DNA of 53,367 nucleotides, from the NCBI GenBank assembly GCA_016125285.1, contig WGMA01000081.1, positions 1 through 53,367 on the forward strand, read 5' to 3'. Origin of the DNA: Phycisphaera sp. (GTDB taxonomy: Bacteria > Planctomycetota > Phycisphaerae > Phycisphaerales > Zrk34). Below, one piece after another: positions 26,713 through 47,004 of this stretch. The translations under genes were made by a program, and so were the position numbers. Numbering within the stretch: the first letter of the stretch is position 1; the number at the start of each line of letters is the position of its first letter. Under the pieces are notes generated by a model. The model was not told the origin of the DNA, did not search any database, and saw nothing but the letters and a program-made list of their open reading frames with translations.

Positions 26713-27043
26713 GGGGATTTTCCATTTCCCGTTTTCCAATGGTCATTTTCCATTTGGGGGGAGGGGGGGTGGCAACGCGTGTCGCGTTGACAGTGCAAAA
26801 TGCAAAATGATCCATGCAAAATGCAAATTGACAGCGAACCCGATTCGTGCCGGGTTGGCGCGCGGCGAGATTGTCGTTTGGGTCATGTGATCGCCCTCTA
26901 CAAATGGTTTCCGCGACGCGCAGGTGCGCACGGGGACGTCGCGACGTGTGCGGGGCGGCGATGTAAGTCGCGTTACGCGGGGGCGATGACTATTTCGTGG
27001 CAAAATGTCGCTGAGCAGGGTTGGTCGGCGCGTTGGTGCGCAC
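26713..27043 (-). repeat. Copy A of a 331-nt dispersed element (inverted relative to copy B at 46674-47004)
   Basis: It fills most of the 606-base gene-free gap 26546-27151. Read on the minus strand from 27043 it holds: GTGCGCACCAACGCG; a conserved core (27006-26913) that matches copy B at 84 of 94 hand-aligned positions without gaps; a second GTGCGCACC 112 bases after the first; a ribosome-site-like GAGGG with ATG (26886) opening 47 codons to 26743; six heptamers of the CAATTTG type (26830-26789); a C-rich tract; and six heptamers of the AATGGAA type (26754-26713). It lies upstream of the ECF sigma operon and downstream of the rpmB terminator. Confidence 0.85.
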
Positions 27044-28854: not shown

Positions 28855-28889
28855 TTTTGGGGTTCGGGGTTGGGGGCTTGGGGTTGGGG
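28855..28889 (+). repeat. G-rich heptamer array (TTGGGG type), left arm
   Basis: About five 7-bp units of the TTGGGGG/TTCGGGG type immediately follow the panD stop. Five runs of four or more G separated by 2-3 bases fit the G-quadruplex pattern. It is inverted relative to the array at 28986-29030. Confidence 0.85.
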
Positions 28890-28985
28890 AAGCTCATATC
28901 CATTCGTGTGGAACCGGCCCTCCCGAGCCTGGCCAGGCCGTGCGCGGGTTCGTGCATCGTATTATGATGGAACGAAGTCCCCAGG

Positions 28986-29030
28986 CCCTAACCCCCAACC
29001 CCTAACCCCTAACCCCTAACCCCCAACCCC
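28986..29030 (+). repeat. C-rich heptamer array (CCCTAAC), right arm
   Basis: Six in-register 7-bp units, four CCCTAAC and two CCCCAAC, plus CCC. It ends 7 bases before the kinase ATG and occupies the place of a ribosome-binding site. It is complementary in kind to the G-rich arm at 28855-28889; 96 bases separate the arms. Confidence 0.9.
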
Positions 29031-30655: not shown

Positions 30656-30690
30656 AATGACGAATGACGAAATTCGAATGACGAATCAAG
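30656..30690 (+). repeat. Heptamer array (AATGACG type), left arm
   Basis: Five in-register 7-bp units (three AATGACG, one AAATTCG, one AATCAAG) begin 8 bases after the kinase stop. The inverted partner lies at 30770-30810. Confidence 0.85.
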
Positions 30691-30769
30691 TTCCAATACT
30701 CAAACCCGGATGATCAAACGGCGAGCCGAGCCCGTACGTCACGACGCTGCATTTGAACATCTGGGCTTC

Positions 30770-41015: not shown

Positions 41016-41030
41016 GCGTACGCTGAAAAT

Positions 41031-41072
41031 CACTTTGCAATTTGCAATGACCAATTTGCAATTTGCAATTTC
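41031..41072 (+). repeat. Heptamer array (CAATTTG type)
   Basis: Six in-register 7-bp units (CACTTTG, CAATTTG, CAATGAC, CAATTTG, CAATTTG, CAATTTC) fill most of the 69-bp gap between the PSD1 fusion and the DUF1501 gene and end directly at its ribosome site (GGAGA). The same unit recurs in both copies of the 331-nt element. Confidence 0.9.
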
Positions 41073-41084
41073 CTGGAGACGATC

Positions 41085-42557
41085 ATGAAATCCAACCAGT
41101 ACAACAATCAGTTCTGCGGCCGCACCCGTCGCGAGTTTCTCTGGCAGACCGGCGGCGGGTTCGGGTCGCTCGCGCTGGCGGGGCTGCTCGGCAACGACTT
41201 CTTCGCGAAGCAGGCCGGCGCCGCCGAAGCCGCGTCGCCCTACGCCAGCATCAACCCGCTGGCGCCGAAGGGCGGCTTCTACCAGGGCAAGGCCAAATCG
41301 GTCATCTTTCTGTTCATGTACGGCGGGCCCAGCCACGTCGATACGTTCGATTACAAGCCGAACCTGTATCCGCTGGACGGCAAGACGATCGACGTCAAGA
41401 CGTTCGGCCGCGGCGGTCACAAGAGCCAGGGCCGCGTGATCGGTCCGCAGTGGAAGTTCAAGCAGTACGGCGAGTGCGGCAAGTACGTCAGCGACCTGTT
41501 CCCGCACATCGGCTCGTGCGTCGACGACATCGCGTTCGTCCACTCGATGTACGCCGACTCGCCGATCCACGGCTCGGCGATGCTCATGATGAACACCGGC
41601 CGCATCCTCTCCGGCAACCCGTGCCTCGGCTCGTGGGTGAACTACGGCCTGGGCAGCGTCAACCAGAACCTGCCGGGCTTCGTGGTGATGCTCGATCCGT
41701 CGGGCGGCCCGATCAGCGGCGCGAAGAACTGGACCAGCGGCTACATGCCCGCGTCGTTCCAGGGCGTGCAGCTGCGCCCGAAGGGCGAACCGATCCTCGA
41801 CCTCAAGCCCCCGGCCGGCATGACCGACGCGGCGCAGGTCCGCCTGATTCAGCAGCTCAACGCGTACAACCACGAGCACCGCGCGGGCCGGGCGTCGAAC
41901 ACCGACCTCGAAGCCCGCATCTCGAGCCTCGAGCTGGCGTACAAGATGCAGCAGTACGCACCGGAGGCCGTGGACGTCGACAAGGAGCCGGAGCACATCA
42001 AGGAGATGTACGGCCTGGACAACAAGGTGACGCAGGAGTTCGGCCGCAAGTGCCTGCTCGCCCGTCGCCTCGTCGAGCGCGGCGTGCGGTTCATCCAGGT
42101 CTACTCCGGCGGCAACCACAACGACTTCAACTGGGACGCGCACACCGACATGGAGGCGAACCACGGCAAGCACGCGCCGGAGACGGATCAGCCGATCGCC
42201 GCGCTGCTGCGTGACCTCAAGCAGCGCGGGCTGCTCGAGGAGACGATCGTGGTGTGGGGCGGCGAGTTCGGGCGTCAGCCCACCGCCGAGTACGCCAAGG
42301 GCACCGGCCGCGACCACAACAGCTACGGGTTCACGATGTGGATGGCCGGCGGCGGCATCAAGGGCGGCACGTCCGTCGGCGCGACCGACGAGCTCGGCTC
42401 CGCCGCCGTCGAGAACCGCTTCCACGTCAAGAACCTCCACGCGACGATCCTGCACCAGATGGGACTCGACCCGAATCGCCTGAGCTACTTCTACAACGGC
42501 CTCGATCAGAAACTCGTCGGCGTCGAAGGCGCGGACCCGATCAGGCAGATCATCTGA
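41085..42557 (+). CDS. Tat-exported DUF1501 protein
   Basis: 490 residues with a twin-arginine signal (RTRREFLWQTGGGFGSLALA). The DUF1501 fold is sulfatase/alkaline-phosphatase-like: IFLFMYGGPSHVDTFDYKP at the start, HGSAMLMMNTGR, VRFIQVYSGG and TIVVWGGEFGRQP. DUF1501 proteins are nearly always encoded right after a PSD1/PSCyt protein in planctomycetes, as here. The partnership is established by genome context; the reaction is not known. Confidence 0.93.
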   Translation: MKSNQYNNQFCGRTRREFLWQTGGGFGSLALAGLLGNDFFAKQAGAAEAASPYASINPLAPKGGFYQGKAKSVIFLFMYGGPSHVDTFDYKPNLYPLDGKTIDVKTFGRGGHKSQGRVIGPQWKFKQYGECGKYVSDLFPHIGSCVDDIAFVHSMYADSPIHGSAMLMMNTGRILSGNPCLGSWVNYGLGSVNQNLPGFVVMLDPSGGPISGAKNWTSGYMPASFQGVQLRPKGEPILDLKPPAGMTDAAQVRLIQQLNAYNHEHRAGRASNTDLEARISSLELAYKMQQYAPEAVDVDKEPEHIKEMYGLDNKVTQEFGRKCLLARRLVERGVRFIQVYSGGNHNDFNWDAHTDMEANHGKHAPETDQPIAALLRDLKQRGLLEETIVVWGGEFGRQPTAEYAKGTGRDHNSYGFTMWMAGGGIKGGTSVGATDELGSAAVENRFHVKNLHATILHQMGLDPNRLSYFYNGLDQKLVGVEGADPIRQII

Positions 42558-42602
42558 CCGCTGCGCGGAATGACGAACAACGCCGCTGCGCGGAATGACG
42601 AA
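42558..42602 (+). repeat. 20-bp direct repeat at the DUF1501 stop
   Basis: The same 20 bases, which end in GGAATGACGAA, occur at 42558-42577 and 42583-42602. The second copy runs into the heptamer array, so this looks like slippage or duplication of the array edge. Confidence 0.85.
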
Positions 42603-42627
42603 TGACGAAACTCGAATGACGAAACAC
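42593..42627 (+). repeat. Heptamer array (GAATGAC type), left arm
   Basis: Five in-register 7-bp units (three GAATGAC, GAAACTC, GAAACAC). The inverted partner is at 42701-42718. Confidence 0.85.
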
Positions 42628-42700
42628 ACCTGATCGATCATCTGATGTCGGCGTCAGGTGCTTTGCTATTCGGGCAATGTGATTTGATTCGACATTTGGA

Positions 42701-45459: not shown

Positions 45460-45540
45460 CGCGCGACTGCGTGCGGCGTGCGTTTTGTCTTTGCCCCTCA
45501 CCGCCATCTGCGTTACGTTTTGTACGGGAGGATGTATCTC

Positions 45541-46659
45541 ATGAAACACGTCGCACGTGTGTGGACCTGTCTGGCAGTCGCAGCAGCGGCGGTGGGGTTG
45601 TTCGTGGACGCGGCGAGCGCGCAGAACGCCGCGACCACGCCCGACGCGCCCGCCGCGCCCGTCAGAAAGCTCGTCGTCGGCGTCAAGCAGGCGCCGCCGT
45701 TCGCGATGAAGGCCAAGGACGGCGAGTGGTCCGGCATCAGCGTCGAACTCTGGCGGAACGTCGCCGAGGAACTCGAGCTCCCTTACGACCTGCGCGAGGT
45801 CACGCTGCCCGAGATGATCGACGGCCTCAAGGACGGCTCGATCGACGTCGGCGTCGGCGCGCTGACCGTCACCGCCGAACGCGAAGAGATGTTCGACTTC
45901 AGCCACCCGTTCTACTCCTCCGGCCTGGGCATCGCGGCGTCGACACGCGGCGACAACGAGTGGATCGGCGTGCTCAAACGCGTCTTCTCCGCGAAGTTCC
46001 TCACCGTCGTCGCGGGCCTGGCGATGCTGCTGCTGGTCGTCGGCGGCGTCATGTGGCTCTTCGAACGCAACGCCAACCCCGACCACTTCGGCGCCGGTCG
46101 CGGCAAGGGCATCGGCGCGGGCTTCTGGTGGGCCGCGGTCACCATGACCACCGTCGGCTACGGCGACAAGGCGCCCGTCACGCTGCCCGGGCGACTCGTC
46201 GGTCTCGTGTGGATGTTCGCCAGCATCATCCTCATCTCGATCTTCACCGCCGGCATCACCACCGCCCTGACCGTCAGCTCGCTCGGCTCGTCGATCGCCG
46301 GCCCCGAAGACCTGCCGCACGTCCGCGTCGGCTCCGTCGACGCCACCACCAGCGCCACCTACCTCCAGGACCACGGCATCGGCTACACCGCGTACGACAC
46401 CGTCGCCGACGCGATGGACGCGCTCGCCGACGGCAAGATCGACGCCGTGCTCTACGACGAGCCGATCCTCCGCTGGCTCGTGCAGCAGAAGGGCCAGGGC
46501 ACGCTCGAAGTGCTGCCCAACACCGTCGAGCGCCAGGACTACGGCCTCGGCCTCCAGCAGGACAGCCCGCTGCGCGAACGCGTCAACCGGGCCGTGCTCC
46601 AACACCTTGCGACCTCGACGTGGGACGCGACGCTGCAGCGCTATCTCGGCAAGCAGTGA
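45541..46659 (+). CDS. GluR0-like ligand-gated potassium channel
   Basis: 372 residues, close to the size of cyanobacterial GluR0 (~400). Start ATG 45541 has GGGAGG 9 bases upstream and a signal peptide. A split solute-binding-protein ligand domain surrounds a channel: lobe 1 ~42-140 (VVGVKQAPPFAMK, VGVGALTVTAEREEMFDFS with the ligand-arginine Arg114), membrane helix ~152-174, pore with the selectivity filter TTVGYGD at 203-209, membrane helix ~217-243, and lobe 2 ~258-372 (DGKIDAVLYDEPILRW). The filter predicts potassium selectivity, and the layout is that of prokaryotic glutamate receptors. The ligand is unknown. Confidence 0.9.
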   Translation: MKHVARVWTCLAVAAAAVGLFVDAASAQNAATTPDAPAAPVRKLVVGVKQAPPFAMKAKDGEWSGISVELWRNVAEELELPYDLREVTLPEMIDGLKDGSIDVGVGALTVTAEREEMFDFSHPFYSSGLGIAASTRGDNEWIGVLKRVFSAKFLTVVAGLAMLLLVVGGVMWLFERNANPDHFGAGRGKGIGAGFWWAAVTMTTVGYGDKAPVTLPGRLVGLVWMFASIILISIFTAGITTALTVSSLGSSIAGPEDLPHVRVGSVDATTSATYLQDHGIGYTAYDTVADAMDALADGKIDAVLYDEPILRWLVQQKGQGTLEVLPNTVERQDYGLGLQQDSPLRERVNRAVLQHLATSTWDATLQRYLGKQ

Positions 46660-46673
46660 GCCGACGCCACACC

Positions 46674-47004
46674 GTGCGCACCAACGCGCACGCCAACGCG
46701 CCTCAGCGCGATTTTGCCACAAAAAAGTCATCGCCCCCGCGCGACGCGACTTACATCGCCGACCCGCGCCCGTCGCGACACCCCCGTGCGCACCAGCGCG
46801 TCGCTTCGCCCATATATGGAGGGTTCACACATGCTCCAACCCACAGACACGCTGCGCGCCGAGCCCGCACCATCCGGGTCCGCTGTCAATTTGCAATTTG
46901 CACTTTGCATTTTGCAATTTGCATTGCAGACGCCCGGCGTCTGCCACCCCCCCTCCCCCCCCAATGGAAAATGGAAACTGACAAATGGAAAATGGAAAAT
47001 GATT
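46674..47004 (+). repeat. Copy B of the 331-nt dispersed element
   Basis: It occupies most of the 403-base gap 46660-47062 between the channel gene and gltX; nothing else is seen there. Order: GTGCGCACCAACGCG (46674), core 46711-46804 (84 of 94 positions equal to copy A, no gaps), a second GTGCGCACC at 46786 (112 bases after the first, as in copy A), GGAGGG with ATG at 46831 opening an 80-codon frame that runs to 47073, five CAATTTG-type heptamers (46887-46921), a C-rich tract, and six AATGGAA-type heptamers (46963-47004). Confidence 0.85.

Follow-up and report, generated by a model that had tools for sequence, protein, structure and literature searches.

A putative twin-site promoter of a gene-transfer-agent-like cluster and its dispersed copies in a Phycisphaera genome

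Two inverted copies of a 331-nt intergenic element lie within 20 kb of the 53,367-nt stretch of Phycisphaera sp. contig WGMA01000081.1 that was analyzed here (the window). Their presence raises the question of whether such an element is a mobile repeat, a structured RNA, or a control region. In a preliminary description of the window, the copies were said to align end to end without gaps, to be equal at 84 of 94 core positions, and each to carry a motif pair 112 bases apart. These observations were reproduced. Ungapped alignment of 46674-47004 (+) with 26713-27043 (-) gave 250 identical positions of 331, compared with a mean of 89 and a maximum of 114 in 500 shuffles. The core count was exact, and GTGCGCACC was found at offsets 0 and 112 in both copies. 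Chance similarity, which a score at the level of shuffled sequence would have indicated, was thereby rejected. The pair is also the longest inverted repeat found in the window by a repeat search (327 nt, 76%). The two copies are located as follows.

46674-47004, plus strand: copy A, with the core at 46674-46833 and the tail at 46887-47004, between a ligand-gated-channel-like gene and gltX
26713-27043, minus strand: copy B, between the ribosomal protein L28 gene and an ECF sigma gene

The suggestion that the two copies belong to a dispersed family was borne out by a search of their own genome (6.09 Mb in 90 contigs), where 20 core matches were found at E ≤ 0.001. Seventeen of these loci are uninterrupted and three are broken by an insertion sequence; the 3' halves of two broken copies (L018 and L022) appeared as extra matches. 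Because contigs end at the broken copies, further copies may be hidden. A sequence-only core model gave 19 matches in this genome, and the heptamer tail alone had additional matches without a core. The 20 aligned copies share a core of ~160 nt, in which conserved blocks alternate with spacers that hardly vary in length. Mean pairwise identity was 0.84 in site 1 (CGTGCGCACC), 0.82 in an A/T-rich block (0.47-0.52 in its adjoining spacers), 0.71 in GACTTACA, 0.89 in CGTCGCGAC, 0.94 in site 2 with GCGCGTCG, and 0.73 in CCATTTATAGAGG; the four core spacers had values of 0.45-0.53. The core features of the window copies are listed below.

46674-46682, plus strand: site 1, GTGCGCACC, a putative operator 112 nt from site 2
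46703-46730, plus strand: conserved A/T-rich block TCAGCGCGATTTTGCCACAAAAAAGTCA (identity 0.82), read as a possible -35/bend region
46749-46755, plus strand: ACTTACA, a -10-like block within GACTTACA (identity 0.71)
46786-46803, plus strand: site 2, GTGCGCACC followed by AGCGCGTCG (identity 0.94, 20 copies)
46810-46823, plus strand: leader box CCATATATGGAGGG, the insertion sequence target in three other copies
27035-27043, minus strand: site 1 of copy B, aligned to copy A
26962-26968, minus strand: ACTTACA of copy B, aligned to copy A
26923-26931, minus strand: site 2 of copy B, 112 nt from its site 1

A structured RNA had been proposed for the element, with a conserved CGCGAC...GTCGCG stem in the core. 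This stem did not rise above the shuffled level: 71.7% of cells were paired compared with 71.1% in the shuffles, 223 of 500 of which were as high. Compensatory changes were found in 0 of 16 predicted pairs of the core, and a folded RNA in this part was rejected on both grounds. In its behavior the core resembles a pair of DNA sites on either side of a promoter-like stretch. The further proposal that a nucleic acid rather than a protein is conserved was partly supported. In the mini-ORF, mean identity was 0.60, 0.65, and 0.54 at codon positions 1, 2, and 3 (15 copies), with little codon-position bias and little coding signal after the ATG, and a coding mini-ORF was rejected. The Shine-Dalgarno-like GGAGG before this ATG proved a weak assignment. 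In a genus of the sister family described below, the GGAGG of the leader box is the 5' side of a hairpin predicted there, in which some changes are compensatory, and inspection by eye showed no ATG at the equivalent position.

The proposal of a structured RNA fared better downstream of the core. The tail contains the following features.

46887-46923, plus strand: CAATTTG/TTTGCA heptamer array
46926-46944, plus strand: tail hairpin GCAGACGC-CCG-GCGTCTGC, with compensatory changes across 12 copies
46947-46962, plus strand: C tract 3' of the hairpin
46963-47002, plus strand: AATGGAA heptamer array, a repeat present elsewhere without a core too
26773-26789, minus strand: tail hairpin of copy B, CAACGCG-ACA-CGCGTTG, from the same 12-copy hairpin alignment

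Across the 12 copies, 95.3% of the hairpin cells were paired and 10 cells carried a two-sided change, values that 0 of 500 shuffles reached in either case; two-sided change occurred in three of nine pairs, which 25 of 500 shuffles equaled. The count covers copies with a recognizable hairpin, L012 (broken hairpin) having been excluded beforehand. In a consensus fold of the entire post-core stretch (10 copies), 4 of 27 pairs had two-sided changes, and each of the four belongs to the tail hairpin. A model of hairpin plus C tract matched 13 places, all inside core copies of this genome, and gave no match in 40 relatives (1 of 41 genomes, the present one). A C-tract pattern occurred 30 times in the genome, but it reads the same backwards and so has no usable control. 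The CAATTTG and AATGGAA heptamers that had been reported are present in the tail, but AATGGAA and TTTGCA heptamers were also found away from the core and are therefore not specific to the element. Rfam relatives of the element RNAs were rejected, as no family reached its curated score. At gathering scores the window yielded tRNA only, and nothing at E ≤ 5 reached the gathering score in 18 element loci; among the sub-threshold matches in these loci, only one, at chance level (E 4.5), overlaps an element RNA.

Of 151 genomes of the order, 21 had matches to the sequence-only core model at E ≤ 0.01; several have more than one copy, and G066 and G069 have seven matches each. Some of the 21 look false by eye: L090, L094-L102, and L138 seem to be coding or lack the blocks. 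In a class-wide sample, only this genome (1 of 198) had a match at E ≤ 0.001, which counts against the promoter/leader explanation favored below. When a genome collection was scanned with a 21-base core pattern, nine genomes had a single match each, all from bacterial phyla other than this one as judged by title; full copies were unsupported by the core profile, whose best match had an E of 0.00095 over 33 model positions. Two matches in viral contigs were equally short by the core profile. In a genus of the sister family (G069, G072, G108, and G129), a structured RNA of ~300 nt comes after the core, the stretch from site 2 onward being 281-359 nt. Ten of 13 loci were folded (L105, L109, and L132 were left out). 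Of 72 predicted pairs, 19 were changed on both sides, in 44 cells, and 94.8% of cells were paired. In 0 of 500 shuffles was the percentage paired, the number of two-sided pairs or cells, or the covariation score as high, although this alignment also served to predict the structure, which is therefore favored by the slid controls. Further pair types were equaled in 46 of 500 shuffles. The seven copies in G066 have another common downstream sequence, as far as the contigs reach, and blocks and downstream sequence are nearly identical between them. By eye, the downstream sequences of different genera are not recognizably alike, which also counts against the favored explanation. Judged from these alignments, the dispersed copies carry lineage-specific predicted RNAs.

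The preliminary description had left room for a MITE-like mobile element. By eye, neither terminal inverted repeats nor target duplications were seen; the ends differ, the 5' end having GTGCGCACC and the 3' end either heptamers or some other sequence. Within the sister genus, copy L140 is in the same place in G108 and G072, with 78% identity in the element stretch and 81-88% in the flanks; at this place in G069 the core was not detected and the flank is not collinear. Around L092, G108, G072, and G129 have element-like stretches downstream of the same gene at differing distances. A clean empty site was not found at either of the two loci compared in the sister genus. The sister-genus copies look old rather than freshly moved, and a MITE was not supported by the flanks and ends read by eye or by this locus comparison. 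One and the same insertion sequence interrupts the three broken copies in the present genome, in each case at a TTATA that precedes GAGG. The assembly has four occurrences of one of its ends, of which three are in elements and one is outside them. It is of the DDE type (Pfam DDE_Tnp_1) with the ends GGAGGTTATGC (loci L014, L015, L018, L019, L022, and L213).

The genes around the copies were called by codon usage. Sixteen of 19 judgeable copies are co-directional with the next gene (one-sided binomial, 0.0022), and the orientation of the upstream genes is split 10 to 10. The position 5' of a housekeeping or regulatory gene noted earlier for the window copies thus extends to the family as far as direction is concerned, but 11 next genes scanned with Pfam have mixed functions and none in common. 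Among them are gltX, an ECF sigma factor, inositol monophosphatase, an S49 peptidase, a GDSL lipase, an ammonium transporter, an aminotransferase, an FHA histidine kinase, an amidohydrolase, and an NADH dehydrogenase subunit. The scanned genes are unrelated to phage functions, which counts against the reading of the core as a promoter of a gene transfer agent. In G005, two related proteins of uncharacterized function (L141 and L142), one with a weak MerR-type match, begin directly after the leader box of element copies; since they begin right there, a few copies may drive real genes.

Flank comparison connected the family with phage-derived genes. Copies in this genome (L030), G003, G005, and G087 precede the same gene. 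L030, the copy least like copy A, lies upstream of an SPP1-type phage portal gene, and in G003 the portal gene is followed by a gene for a SU10-type major capsid protein. The scaffold match was below the curated cut-off. The terminase large subunit scored near the Pfam cut-offs and had an E of 1.3e-13 in PHROGs; its gene in the present genome lies ~6 kb from the portal copy, beside a gene for an XRE-S24 repressor, which was found in 29 of 41 genomes. The head and packaging genes are of phage origin. In the order, 71 of 121 genomes have the portal gene, and in the class 88 of 198 have it, mostly as a single gene; where a genome had two matches, these were mostly fragments of one gene. The family labels on a portal protein tree with 51 members (30 from the order and 21 from the remaining class, the split gene of the present genome excluded) need 12 changes, which is the minimum, compared with 35.6 for shuffled labels. 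The portal gene is thus inherited vertically with its host. Eleven records of a phage collection match the portal protein, and among the ten listed, identity is 21-27% over 43-79% of the protein. Six peptide patterns from one portal protein had no match in viral contigs. By these comparisons, the cluster is distinct from known self-propagating phages.

Vertically inherited head and packaging genes are what is expected for a gene transfer agent. On this basis the cluster appears gene-transfer-agent-like, consisting of vertically inherited, domesticated phage head genes, and it would make DNA-carrying particles. The portal gene of the present strain is split, which counts against this view. On contig 41 (~58179-73087, L143), the N-terminal part of the portal is in one frame with a serine recombinase, and the C-terminal part is encoded on the opposite strand at a distance of ~13.5 kb; phage capsid, sigma-like, and helicase genes occupy the interval. 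In G035, a gene that is recombinase-like by eye closely follows the portal gene. A second phage may use the cluster as an integration site. Among the titles and abstract openings of the papers listed, there was no report of such a cluster in planctomycetes.

If the core belongs to the control region of this cluster, its sites should recur upstream of other portal genes. The 30 best-scoring portal loci of the order were examined for pairs of GTGCGCAC with at most one mismatch, 100-122 nt apart and within 330 nt upstream. Such pairs precede 15 of the 30 portal genes, whereas none of the 905 other windows taken from these loci has one; resampled regions gave a mean of 0.11 of 30 and a maximum of 2. 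Several counts weaken the case. Only 2 of the 30 portal regions have exact pairs. When two mismatches were tolerated, pairs were found in 23 of 30 portal regions but also in 185 of 905 controls. The dispersed-core profile had its best plus-strand match upstream of the portal gene in 13 of 30 loci, only 7 of them at E < 0.02. Upstream of a number of portal genes, ACTTACA also stands between the two sites of the pair, and a box similar to the leader box, CCAAGGGTGRAGG, is present by eye upstream of many portal genes. The A/T block with ACTTAC was found in 6 of 30 portal regions compared with 10 of 905 control windows in the order, and in 8 of 21 compared with 51 of 667 in the class.

Outside the order, the GTGCGCAC pair was present in 1 of 21 portal regions (controls, 0 of 667), which counts against the control-region reading. 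Another repeated 14-mer was found in 7 of 20 testable regions (shuffle p ≤ 0.01), with G188 and G290 near relatives among these seven genomes and the repeat in G297 A/T-rich and of low complexity. These repeats vary by lineage, for example TCGAACCATTTGTG, TTTGCGCGCGCAAA, and CAAAAACGCGCAAC, with spacings of 109-115 nt. Within the order the same test was passed by only 3 of 30 loci, which again counts against this reading. Twin sites that change together at a constant distance are the trace that a bound regulator would leave. The XRE-S24 repressor was unsupported as this regulator, as by eye a different motif, ATACCAAACAT, stands before its own gene. By eye, a motif of the TATACCAAACATTA type, often with TTGACA, precedes the start of the XRE-S24 gene in several genomes (L147-L156). 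The core or paired sites lie just 3' of the XRE-S24 gene in G003, G005, G006, G029, and G069.

We favor an explanation, with a probability of about 0.6, in which the core is a composite promoter/leader of the gene-transfer-agent-like cluster and the window copies are dispersed versions of it that make short RNAs. It draws on the copies and their fixed architecture, the twin sites before portal genes, the vertical inheritance of the portal gene, and the covariation of the downstream RNAs. Two palindromic operators, GTGCGCAC, ~112 nt apart would frame the A/T-rich region and the ACTTACA -10-like box, with a GGAGG-type leader box after the second operator. A single ancestral copy would drive the portal, scaffold, and major capsid genes, and 19 further copies of the core would be dispersed versions between genes in this genome. 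The core would act as a promoter, one regulator would bind both of its sites, and the copies would be transcribed together with the cluster. Every dispersed copy would probably answer to the same regulator and make a short leader RNA, predicted in most copies as the covarying hairpin plus C tract, possibly reading into the next gene. The dispersed copies would thus probably switch on short RNAs together with the virus-like cluster. A bolder extension, which we offer tentatively and consider rather doubtful, is that a class-wide domesticated phage runs a stand-alone RNA gene network. Copies of its own twin-operator promoter, fused to lineage-specific structured RNAs and scattered, would be switched on with particle production, and the RNAs would act as regulators or as particle-spread, RNA-only selfish elements.

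Other explanations account for part of these data. A mobile MITE-like or satellite element with a phage-type promoter and RNA, spreading alone or with phage-derived particles, would fit the lineage-specific expansions (20 copies here, 7 each in G066 and G069) with their lineage-specific downstream sequences, and the near identity of blocks and downstream sequence in G066 as far as the contigs reach. However, conserved blocks next to strongly diverged spacers are unlike recent copies, the orientation is biased (16 of 19 co-directional), L140 occupies the same place in G108 and G072, and the ends by eye have neither terminal inverted repeats nor target duplications. We therefore regard this as unlikely. 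Somewhat less likely still is a pac- or cos-like packaging site of the cluster, whose dispersal would let packaging of chromosomal DNA begin at many points. The location directly before the portal gene, the repeated recognition sites, and the terminase large subunit gene ~6 kb from the portal copy are in its favor, but no terminase gene adjoins the site, the twin sites enclose a promoter-like box, and structured RNAs follow the dispersed copies.

Equally improbable is a set of unrelated host-gene promoters of one regulon, whose similarity would reflect common regulation without copying and whose targets would be the downstream host genes. That 16 of 19 copies point into the next gene agrees with such a regulon, but ~160 nt in common, in many copies with a specific hairpin and C tract, exceeds the needs of binding sites, and the next genes are functionally mixed. 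The leader of a small translated peptide with a common ATG frame is very improbable. Most copies do have GGAGG before an ATG and a common frame start; yet the codon-position identities are 0.60/0.65/0.54 (15 copies), the frame diverges after ~13 codons by eye, and, also by eye, several copies, as well as those of the sister genus, lack the ATG or have it displaced.

The favored promoter/leader explanation has partial parallels in known systems. At the lambda pR'-6S RNA/Q system, a phage late promoter is followed by a leader with hairpins, antitermination, and then the late genes. The order of promoter, hairpin leader, and late genes is similar here, whereas many stand-alone copies are found only in the present case. 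Mobile promoters, or dispersed intergenic promoter repeats, are homologous promoter-bearing stretches before unrelated genes; the present family differs in its constrained fixed blocks, an ancestral locus at a phage-derived cluster, and the covarying RNA hairpin. The closest analogue appears to be the gene transfer agent (GTA) regulon of Caulobacter crescentus. In that system the promoter of the GTA cluster is activated by GafY together with IHF, as are ~18 promoters dispersed elsewhere, while antitermination is contributed by GafZ (PMC11150451). The likeness is one of outline: a multi-element promoter with a far-upstream site and a palindrome, a phage-derived cluster, and dispersed promoters bound by the same activator. 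In contrast to Caulobacter, the dispersed copies here share ~160 nt and carry their own predicted RNA, the twin sites flank the promoter-like stretch, and the capsid is of the SU10 type. Because the architecture differs, membership in the GafY/GafZ system is not claimed. The present data point to a gene-transfer-agent-like cluster inherited through a bacterial class. Its control region gains a testable anatomy, in which the twin-site sequence varies by lineage and the spacing stays, and this region appears to have undergone repeated copying, with new structured RNAs attached to the copies.

The tail arrays have a parallel of their own. Intergenic heptanucleotide repeats such as TAACTGA are described for Beggiatoaceae (PMC4679880), and as seven-base direct intergenic repeats they resemble the TTTGCAA and AATGGAA arrays. 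The arrays here, however, are only an appendage, and the core is unrelated. Other heptamer arrays in the window lie at 28856-29030, 30656-30704, 41030-41088, and 42594-42640; their heptamers are CCCTAAC, AATGACG, and TTTGCAA, and some arrays form inverted pairs. At 45478-46659 of the window, a solute-binding domain match spans an ion-channel domain, the arrangement of a prokaryotic ligand-gated (glutamate-receptor-like) channel.
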